From Methylophilus rhizosphaerae (GTDB taxonomy: Bacteria > Pseudomonadota > Gammaproteobacteria > Burkholderiales > Methylophilaceae): a stretch of DNA of 64,000 nt. A program made the position numbers and the translations under genes. The stretch's first letter is position 1. Each line of letters begins with the position of its first letter. This document shows, in pieces, positions 27,446-33,223 of the stretch. The notes under the pieces were generated by a model. The model was not told the DNA's origin, ran no database searches, and saw nothing but the letters and a program-made list of their open reading frames with translations. The stretch is taken from positions 124,001 to 188,000 of the forward strand of contig NZ_FNFX01000002.1 of the NCBI RefSeq assembly GCF_900100975.1. The letters run 5' to 3'.

Positions 27446-28315
27446 TTATTTCTTACCAGTATTGCGCATGTATTTAAAGAAATCTGAATTCTGGTCAATC
27501 ACCATCACGTCAGACTTGCTTTTGAAGCTGTTTTTATACGCTTCCTGGCTACGGTAGAACGCGTAGAATTCGGGATTTTTGCCATAAGCCTGCGCATATA
27601 CTTCTGCAGCTTTCGCATCGCCCTCACCCTTTACCTTTTGTGCATCACGGTACGCTTCCGCAATAATCACTTCACGCTGTTTATCCGCATCGGCACGGAT
27701 TTTTTCAGCTGCAGCAGCACCTTGCGAACGTAATTCATTGGCCACAGATTTACGCTCAGCCTCCATACGCTGGTAAACCGACTCACTCACCTCTTTGGTC
27801 AGATCTACCCGACGTAAACGCACATCCAGAATCTGGATACCCATCTGGCGGCTTTCCTTGTCAGCGCGCTCACGCAGAATATCCATAATTTCTGCACGTT
27901 CGCCGGAAACCACATCATGAATGGTACGTTTACCAAACTCTGCCCGCAGGCCATCATTGACCATTTGCGAGATACGACGCTCAGCCTGTACTTCATCGCC
28001 CCGCACAGAAACATAATATCTGGCCGGGTCAATAATGCGCCACTTGATAAATGAATCAACCAATACGTTCTTTTTCTCGCTGGTAATAAAACGGTCAGGT
28101 TCTTCCCAGTTCAAAGTCAGGATACGTTTGTCGTAATAGCGGATATTCTCGACCATAGGCATTTTGAAATAAATACCAGGTTCTTTTTTGACAGAGACAA
28201 TTTCACCCAGGCGGAATACCAGCGCATATTCCCGCTGGTCCACGGTATACGCCGAGGAAGTAATCACCACCAGTAATATAAATACCCCGATTAACAGGCT
28301 TCCAATATTTCTCAT
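27446..28315 (-). CDS. hflC: HflC, modulator of the FtsH protease
   Basis: SPFH/prohibitin-family membrane protein that assembles with HflK into a large cage around FtsH. 289 residues: one N-terminal membrane anchor (about 5-22, LLIGVFILLVVITSSAYTV), the SPFH domain (about 25-190), and a long coiled coil (about 190-260) ending with the conserved SDFFKYMRN near the C-terminus. It begins 22 bases after hflK, in the same operon. Confidence 0.96.
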   Translation of the reverse strand: MRNIGSLLIGVFILLVVITSSAYTVDQREYALVFRLGEIVSVKKEPGIYFKMPMVENIRYYDKRILTLNWEEPDRFITSEKKNVLVDSFIKWRIIDPARYYVSVRGDEVQAERRISQMVNDGLRAEFGKRTIHDVVSGERAEIMDILRERADKESRQMGIQILDVRLRRVDLTKEVSESVYQRMEAERKSVANELRSQGAAAAEKIRADADKQREVIIAEAYRDAQKVKGEGDAKAAEVYAQAYGKNPEFYAFYRSQEAYKNSFKSKSDVMVIDQNSDFFKYMRNTGKK

Positions 28316-28337: not shown

Positions 28338-29525
28338 CTAGCGATATTCGCGATCACGGCTTCTCATGGAGTCACGAGTGCGATCCAGGCCAGTGCTATC
28401 ACTGCGAGACGGTTCCTGGGCAGACTTTTCTGCAGCAGGCGCGGATGTCGTTCCATTACCGGCACCACTCATACTCATCAGTTTGTCCAATGGCAAATAA
28501 AGCAAGCTATTGCCACCTTTTTGATCCACCAGCACTTTGCTGGTGTTGGACAGTATCTGTTCCTGTGTATCCAGATACAAGCGCTGGCGAGTCACTTCCG
28601 GTGCCTTGTTGTATTGCGTCAGAATCTGCTCAAAACGGTCAGCATTACCCCTGGCTTCGTTTTCCACCCGTAATTTGTAACCGGAGGCTTCTTCCGCCAG
28701 GCGCGCTGCGGTACCGCGTGCTTTTGGAATCACGTCATTGGCATAAGCCTGACCTTCATTTTTCTGGCGTTCCAGATCCTGCTTGGCTTTCACCGCATCA
28801 TCAAACGCGGCCTGCACCTGCTCAGGTGGCTGCGCATTCTGCATGGTGACATTGACGATATGAACACCGGACTGGTATCTATCCAGCATTTCCTGCATCA
28901 GTTTTTTTGCTTTTGCAGCTACTTCATCACGGCCCTCATACAGCACGAAATCCATTTTGCTCTTACCGGCAATTTCACGGATCGCCGTCTCGGCAATACC
29001 GCGCACGCTCTCCTCTGTTGAGCGGTTGTTAAACTGGTAATCTTCGACCGATTTGAGGTTGTACTGTACGGCCACTTGCAAGTCAATGATATTTTCATCA
29101 TCGGTCAGCATGAGCGATTCGCGCAACTCCTTGTTGCGACCAGACTCGCCCTCAAAAGAACGATAGCCCAACTCAATAGTCCGCACCTGTTCAAGGTTAA
29201 CGTTTTCAACCGTCTCAATCGGGAAAGGCAAATGCCAGCGCGGGCCTGGCATGGTGGTTTCAACATGCTTGCCAAAACGCAACACGACACCGCGAGATCC
29301 CTGGTCCACGATATAAAAACCGGAGCCCAGCCAGATCAGGGCAACCAGGCCCAGGATAGGCGCAACCGGCAAAGATTGTGGTGCCGGTGCACCACCACGA
29401 GGGCCACCCTGCCCGCCTTTGCCACCAAACATACGATTGAGCTTTTGATTCAAGTCCTTGAACACCTCGTCCAGATCGGGCGGGCCTTCATTATTTTTAT
29501 TCCAAAAGCCTGGAAACTTTCTCAT
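28338..29525 (-). CDS. hflK: HflK, modulator of the FtsH protease
   Basis: Partner of HflC. 395 residues: a Gly-rich cytoplasmic N-terminus (FGGKGGQGGPRGG, about 34-46), one membrane segment (about 55-75, ILGLVALIWLGSGFYIV), an SPFH domain and a coiled coil rich in Ala/Glu. The C-terminal 50 residues are Ser/Arg/Asp-rich and probably disordered. It starts 26 bases after the end of hflX. Confidence 0.96.
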   Translation of the reverse strand: MRKFPGFWNKNNEGPPDLDEVFKDLNQKLNRMFGGKGGQGGPRGGAPAPQSLPVAPILGLVALIWLGSGFYIVDQGSRGVVLRFGKHVETTMPGPRWHLPFPIETVENVNLEQVRTIELGYRSFEGESGRNKELRESLMLTDDENIIDLQVAVQYNLKSVEDYQFNNRSTEESVRGIAETAIREIAGKSKMDFVLYEGRDEVAAKAKKLMQEMLDRYQSGVHIVNVTMQNAQPPEQVQAAFDDAVKAKQDLERQKNEGQAYANDVIPKARGTAARLAEEASGYKLRVENEARGNADRFEQILTQYNKAPEVTRQRLYLDTQEQILSNTSKVLVDQKGGNSLLYLPLDKLMSMSGAGNGTTSAPAAEKSAQEPSRSDSTGLDRTRDSMRSRDREYR

Positions 29526-29551: not shown

Positions 29552-30668
29552 TTAAACGTAGGCACGCTCTTCCGTACTCAGTTTTTTCAGATATTGTTGA
29601 TGCTCTAACAGCGCCTGACGCAAATCTTCGATGCCTGTACCCTCTCTGGCTGAGACACGAACAGTCCGGATATTACCATATTCATTCCTGTCCACCCCCG
29701 GCGCCATGTCCAGGCGGTCAATCTGGTTCAATACCAGGATCTGCGGAACGTTCGCGGCACCAATTTCATTAAGCACAATATTCACCTGCTCAATCTGGTT
29801 GTCGCGGTTGGGACTGGCCACGTCGACCACATGCAACAGTAAGTCGGCCTGCGCAGCTTCTTCCAGGGTAGCGCCAAAGGCTTCAATCAGGGTAGTCGGC
29901 AAATGCTTGATAAAGCCTACCGTATCGGACAAGACTACCGGGTAACCTTCCGGTAAATGCATTTTGCGTGAAGTCGTATCCAGCGTTGCAAATAGCTGAT
30001 CCGCTGCGTACACGCCAGAATGCGTTAACCGGTTAAACAAAGTGGATTTACCGGCGTTGGTATACCCTACCAACGATACCGTCATCAAATTGGAACGTTT
30101 ACGTGCACGACGCTGCATGCCACGTTGCTGTTTCAGCTTGTCCAGTTTTTCACGCAATTGCTTCACGCGTATACGCAACATACGCCGGTCGAGTTCCAGC
30201 TGTGTTTCACCCGGGCCACCGCGCACACCGATACCGCCTTTTTGGCGTTCAAGGTGGGTCCAGCCGCGTAGACAAGTGCTCCAGTTGCGCCAGCTCCACT
30301 TGCAATTTACCTTCATGGGATTGCGCGCGCTGGGCAAAAATATCCAGGATAAGGCCGGTACGGTCCACCACGCGCGCCTCAAGCAACTTTTCGAGGTTAC
30401 GCTGCTGCGAAGGGCTCAAGTCGTGATTAAACGCCGCCACTTTGCTTTCATGTGCGGCCATGAGTGCTTTCAGTTCATCTGCCTTACCGGAGCCAATAAA
30501 ATATTTGGGATCAGGTGAATGGCGTTTACCTTCAAGCGTGGCTGAAATATTTAGTCCGGCAGTACCGGCAAGATGGCGGAGTTCTTGCAAACTTTCTTCG
30601 TAATCAGCATCACCAAAATTGACACTGACCAGGACGACAGCATCTCCGCCGCTAGGTCTATCAAACAT
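29552..30668 (-). pseudogene. hflX: HflX ribosome-splitting GTPase, frameshifted
   Basis: HflX is a GTPase that binds and splits stalled ribosomes. The N-terminal part (30668 to about 30270) reads MFDRPSGGDAVVLVSVNFG and on to VELAQLEHLSTRL, then hits a stop at 30249. The rest (from about 30268 to 29552) continues in another frame from RGWTHLERQKGGIGVRGGPGE, with the G motifs GYTNAGKSTLFN, DTVGFIKHLP and LNQIDRLD intact. Family proteins read TRLVRGWTHLER here, so the DNA lacks 11 bases coding for most of TRLV. The missing unit would form a near-perfect tandem repeat with the bases that remain. Either a true disruption, a slippage-prone site, or an assembly error. The start is six bases after hfq. 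Confidence 0.88.
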
Positions 30669-30671
30669 GCA

Positions 30672-30914
30672 TTAAGATTCTTGTGCGGGTTCGTGTGATC
30701 CCAGGCTGACTGGACGGGCTGGAACAATGGTGGAAATAGCGTGTTTGTAAACCATTTGGGTCACAGTGTTTTTCAACAGAATGACATACTGATCGAAGGA
30801 ATCTACCTGGCCTTGCAATTTAATACCGTTTACGAGATAAATAGACACTTGTACATGCTCTTTTCTCAGGGCGTTAAGAAAAGGATCTTGCAGCATTTGG
30901 CCTTTATTATTCAT
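30672..30914 (-). CDS. hfq: RNA chaperone Hfq
   Basis: Sm-like hexamer that helps small RNAs pair with mRNAs. 80 residues: Sm1 motif around [26 protein letters not shown] and Sm2 [12 protein letters not shown], with the proximal-face YKHA signature. It begins [19 protein letters not shown], as in other betaproteobacteria; the C-terminal tail is short (about 12 residues). A good ribosome site (AAGGAGC) precedes it. It heads the hfq-hflX-hflK-hflC-DUF2065 operon. Confidence 0.97.
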
Positions 30915-33004: not shown

Positions 33005-33223
33005 ATGACATTTTTATCATCACAGGTACAGCAAATAGCCAGAATCGGGGCGAATCTTGAACTCAGCCCCGAAAGCAATTATTTATCTTCCCAAGTAGAG
33101 CAGATTATCAGGATTGTCAAAAGCCGCGAAGGCCATATCAGGGTACATGCCGGCAATTACACCTCTTCGCAGTTGGAACAGTTCGCACGGATTGGCGGCG
33201 CCAGCGTTACCATTGTGGTGTAA
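33005..33223 (+). CDS. 72-residue protein of three helix-strand repeats
   Basis: Unrecognised, but clearly built from three copies of one unit. The copies start at F3, Y26 and Y52, each with the core SSQ(V/L)xQ(I/F)xRI: FLSSQVQQIARIGAN, YLSSQVEQIIRIVKS, YTSSQLEQFARIGGA. Each is followed by a likely short beta-strand (LELSP, HIRVHAG, VTIVV). No signal peptide or membrane segment. A good ribosome site (GAAGGA) stands 8 bases before the ATG, and a symmetrical terminator follows 19 bases after the stop, so it is a compact single-gene unit. A solenoid-like or oligomerising small protein is possible; function unknown. Confidence 0.75.
   Translation: MTFLSSQVQQIARIGANLELSPESNYLSSQVEQIIRIVKSREGHIRVHAGNYTSSQLEQFARIGGASVTIVV

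Follow-up and report, generated by a model that had tools for sequence, protein, structure and literature searches.

The analysed stretch of DNA (the window, 64 kb) corresponds to positions 124001-188000 of contig C8 in a 2.76 Mb assembly of 10 contigs, which is 99.99% complete. On its minus strand, hflX runs from 30668 to 29552 and lies in two different frames, as an earlier note on this DNA had stated and as both the open reading frames (ORFs) and a split match to the NCBIfam HflX profile (TIGR03156) bear out. The N-terminal fragment (30249..30668, minus strand, 139 aa) carries ND1 and the first part of the helical domain, and the C-terminal fragment (29552..30316, minus strand, +1 frame) carries the rest of the helical domain, the GTPase domain and the C-terminus. 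The two ORFs match profile positions 2-128/129 (155-158 bits) and 129-349 (314-316 bits), respectively, in two frames, and together the halves match this family of ribosome-splitting GTPases along its length. The C-terminal part alone exceeds the curated cut-off of the profile (216.75 bits), and no single frame covers the family. The N-terminal fragment ends in ...STRLDPP, with its last three residues off-frame, followed by a TGA at 30251-30249, and because of this stop the N-terminal domain is not joined to the GTPase domain. The downstream frame is entered at LRGWTHLERQKGG; its first ATG (30316-30314) is located upstream of the junction, and a TTG start would extend it to 30382 (ORF 30382..29552). 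The ORF listing contained no further frameshift or stop inside either half.

The neighbouring genes on the same strand are open, and their products score above the respective curated cut-offs for Hfq, HflK and HflC: hfq (30672..30914) is located upstream of hflX, hflK (28338..29525) downstream, and hflC (27446..28315) downstream of hflK. The order hfq-hflX-hflK is the same as in Escherichia coli K-12, and in the window hflC follows. The E. coli K-12 HflX has the aligned residues TRLVRGW, with RGW starting at residue 138, whereas the gene in the window is split at the residues aligned to this motif, before the glycine-rich loop. The nearest solved HflX chains are 7yla and 5ady, both from E. coli.

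We compared the locus with the hflX genes of congeners, a comparison which the earlier note had proposed. An orthologue was obtained from 20 of the 21 congeners searched (L008-L027); the remaining one (G018) is an 80% complete assembly in 390 contigs. All 20 congeneric copies hold the residues that the window lacks and encode STRLVRGWTHLERQKGG in one frame, and in all of them the gap between the serine codon and the RGW codons is 11 bases longer than in the window. The predicted loss of 11 bases between these codons is thus confirmed, and against the congeneric copies it is placed at 30259-30269. In the wider bacterial family, an HflX match with an E-value of 1e-40 or lower is present in at least 168 of 187 genomes; among the matches listed, the same holds for 118 of the 119 genomes with a completeness of 90% or more and a contamination of 5% or less, the genome of the window (G000) included. 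When the 10 family genomes with weak HflX scores were searched again together with G018, three partial matches were found to begin at a contig edge (G135, G069 and G027), and no case of two hflX halves abutting in two frames on one contig was detected in these 11 genomes (E 1e-12). Six genomes (G101, G167, G182, G086, G129 and G152) have partial HflX hits beside a full-length one. In a 47% complete assembly, an HflX match contains four internal stop codons (G049:C1:875402-876271); it may be another damaged hflX or may reflect the poor assembly.

The junction holds a single 11-base unit (30259..30269, minus strand), which gives TRL-G when read in the upstream frame and RGW when read in the downstream one. 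The earlier note explained the lesion as the loss of one unit between repeats with one copy surviving, and this explanation is supported by the dual reading of the remaining bases, which fit both repeat arms simultaneously. When TRLVRGW is encoded with CGN arginine codons, the amino acids alone dictate four of the 10 matches between bases 11 positions apart (lag-11 matches: C, G, T, G); the remainder involve wobble bases. The earlier note further assumed that the valine codon was GTA, which would complete an 11-base tandem unit. The assumption is a plausible one, although it is unproven and GTA is a minority codon, used by two of the 20 congeners (GTG in 13, GTC in five). The ancestral repeat can be inferred in outline only: it would have been about 9 bases long with GTG and 10 with GTA, on the premise that the same wobble bases were present in both arms.

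Exact lag-11 runs near the site reach 7 bases in two of the congeneric copies, 6 in three, 4 in eight, 3 in six and 2 in one; these are the greatest lengths within about 70 bases surrounding the site, and some of the runs lie beside the arms. An exact repeat of 7 bases is found at the arms themselves in L009 and L011, and these are the only runs of at least 7 bases among the hits listed (up to four per gene) in the 20 genes. As the longest run is only 2-4 bases in 15 of the 20 copies, long arms are atypical of the genus, and a standing tandem array is found at the hflX site in none of the 20. Beyond the genus, a 9-base lag-11 run is present at the site in three of 98 parsed loci (L058, L116 and L166, from other lineages), all of which are in frame across the site; the 98 were parsed from 111 loci (13 unparsed loci excluded) and are partly redundant (L037/L018 and L042/L017 apparently duplicate one another), and L166 entered the set through a pattern biased towards such sequence. 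Arms of 9 bases therefore occur in nature and can stay intact. Of 80 wider loci, 72 had a readable motif and a frame open over 330 aa or more, eight loci without a recognised motif (L037-L043 and L113) being left out; the motif was TRLVRGW in 39 of the 72 and TRLIRGW in 29, and the latter loses one of the fixed matches.

A gene that loses bases through replication slippage between short direct repeats is broken in an ordinary manner, and we consider a real, recent loss-of-function deletion of this kind, between two short cryptic direct repeats in hflX, to be the probable explanation of the lesion. The repeat arms would arise where the codons for (T)RL and RGW overlap in the conserved TRLVRGW. 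During replication, or during annealing repair, the nascent strand would slip between these arms, which start 11 bases apart, and the loss of one arm together with the spacer (11 bases) would shift the frame. The locus resembles known slippage deletions in that one arm plus the spacer is lost and the surviving bases fit both arms, and differs from them in that the arms are an incidental result of the codons used for a conserved peptide rather than a dedicated repeat. We infer this mechanism, like the length of the ancestral repeat, from the surviving bases, which fit both arms after the loss of one; a point against it is that the exact match between the arms in the congeneric copies is short (7 bases in two of 20 and at most 6 near the site in the other 18).

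The age of the lesion was considered from the conservation of the two halves. Pairwise dN/dS values of the N- and C-terminal parts against six of the 20 congeners were 0.011-0.019 (11 of 12 values; one was not computable), and those between pairs of the same six congeners were 0 to 0.030 (27 of 30 values computed); synonymous divergence from the window exceeds 1 in every computable comparison, and the ratios are accordingly rough. Among 369 codons compared in 15 taxa, the window has two private residues at otherwise invariant positions, and the 14 congeners have 0-9. As estimated from these codon comparisons, the purifying selection on both halves is similar to that on intact copies. The loss is either recent or absent from the living strain altogether, and the recent origin proposed in the earlier note is supported in that neither half is eroded. 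Provided that the assembly is correct, the gene combines a disabling lesion, an otherwise conserved sequence and in-frame orthologues in relatives, as is characteristic of a recent pseudogene.

The profile search detected no other HflX in the genome of the window; its next matches were at E 5e-15 or weaker and covered the GTPase part only. A further gene of the HflX family is present in 13 of the 21 congeners (L029-L036 among these loci); it shares 46-52% identity with the query and has an open frame of 443-501 aa, or 260 aa in one case. At E 1e-40, such a gene was found neither in the genome of the window nor in the other eight congeners; in seven of these eight hflX is in frame, and the eighth (G018) gave no hflX.

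We also looked for the deletion form in other genomes with two DNA patterns. With the first, 16 of the 399 genomes examined from the order gave a match; an intact gene, too, satisfies this pattern through its downstream arm if the codon before RGW ends in A. Inspection of the other 15 matches revealed 12 hflX genes in frame across the site and three unrelated sequences (L165, L167 and L181). The stricter pattern matched one of 369 genomes of the class, namely that of the window. Both patterns are limited to particular codon families and would miss other alleles; within these limits, the deletion form was not found outside the genome of the window among the 399 order and 369 class genomes, and there was no sign of a recurrent or switchable hflX allele. 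The deletion allele is known from one assembly of one isolate.

Among the alternative explanations, the most serious is an error of the assembly or consensus, in which hflX is intact in the strain and the assembler or polisher dropped 11 bases at a short near-tandem repeat. Such an error would explain why both halves look fully constrained, and would fit both the HflX match in 118 of the 119 good-quality family genomes (among the matches listed, G000 included) and the failure to find a second HflX that could cover the loss. However, any ordinary read would extend across two such units, about 22 bases in all, and errors in long reads are typically homopolymer errors of one or two bases. To evaluate the quality of the consensus, 366 mechanically defined ORFs from 400 kb of a congener (G006) were set against 400 kb from the genome of the window. 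Hits were obtained for 249 ORFs, 221 of them at 55% identity or higher, and 211 of these 221 were covered over more than 85% of their length; breaks near gene ends would escape this survey. Of the poorly covered ORFs, three were candidate frameshifts and were looked at, and hflX alone was judged credible among the 221 comparable genes. The candidate near 73.7 kb was dropped as an over-extended start in the congener (there are two adjacent genes in the genome of the window), and the one near 8.2 kb, in an ORF 56-60% identical, as having no clear gene. In the reverse comparison, two of 222 were candidates: hflX again, and an ORF at 154741-155046; the latter is on the strand opposite to hfq and was judged not to be a gene. 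A generally bad consensus is unlikely, since more frameshifts would then be expected in 400 kb. The collapse of a short repeat during assembly, which the earlier note had listed as one origin of the lesion, is thus unlikely given the span of ordinary reads and the lack of any other credible frameshift in the 400 kb, and it is the alternative to which we give the most weight.

Two further alternatives accept the deletion as real. In contingency loci, coding tandem repeats change the reading frame, and the earlier note had raised a switchable site of this kind; a change in repeat number would then turn HflX on and off within the population. The deletion does map to a near-tandem repeat, its unit is not divisible by three as in known contingency loci, and the unmutated halves are what a recently switched-off allele would show. 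Against this, with a single unit left, slippage has nothing to act on for a reversal; exact lag-11 runs near the site are at most 2-7 bases long in the 20 congeners, none of which has an array of units; and the patterns found the deletion form in no genome but that of the window (399 order and 369 class genomes). Within the codon limits of the patterns, then, neither a multi-unit repeat nor the presence of both alleles in relatives was observed, and the site differs from contingency loci in showing no second allele and no way back by slippage. Phase variation is the least credible of the explanations considered here. Almost as improbable is that HflX still works, either by +1 recoding at the stop of the N-terminal frame (e.g. 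CCU-UGA) or as a two-piece protein. In prfB, a +1 shift takes place at a UGA stop, and in hflX, too, the stop is UGA and the required shift is +1; re-initiation could also occur at the in-frame ATG of the GTPase half at 30316. However, no Shine-Dalgarno-like stimulator was seen by eye beside the stop codon; a protein made by a perfect shift would still be without about four residues and the RGW motif common to the 20 congeners; and the arrangement was found by the patterns in no other genome among the 399 of the order and 369 of the class. A programmed frameshift or a two-piece HflX was judged unlikely on these grounds.

If the slippage deletion is real, its effect on the protein can be predicted from the domain structure. 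A review (PMC12493154) describes the N-terminal domain of HflX as comprising ND1, which contacts helix 69, and a helical domain with a loop that reaches the peptidyl transferase centre. In the window, the break would cut off ND1 and the beginning of the helical domain from the rest; with the ribosome-binding N-terminal domain no longer attached to the GTPase domain, the ribosome-splitting activity would be lost, and neither piece is expected to split ribosomes. These predictions suggest that an intact HflX may be dispensed with altogether in a living Methylophilus strain. A heat phenotype does not always accompany the loss of HflX, since the same review reports none in two mycobacterial deletion mutants. 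Among the papers listed for hflX with a frameshift, no lesion of this kind was seen described in the titles and the opening parts of the abstracts.

On a small scale, the site illustrates clearly how a deletion-prone repeat may result from the choice of codons for a conserved peptide; in other respects the lesion is a commonplace disabling mutation or, with lower probability, a slip of the assembly. A much broader reading, which we regard as quite improbable, would make TRLVRGW a latent slippage site wherever it is present, such that lineages with matching codons repeatedly lose HflX by the same 11-base deletion and the motif acts as a codon-tuned, low-level off switch for ribosome rescue.

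Elsewhere in the window, a small ORF of 72 aa (33005-33223, plus strand) contains three internal repeats of the type SSQ(V/L)(Q/E)Q(I/F)xRI, and it possibly encodes a small repeat protein or possibly arose by chance.
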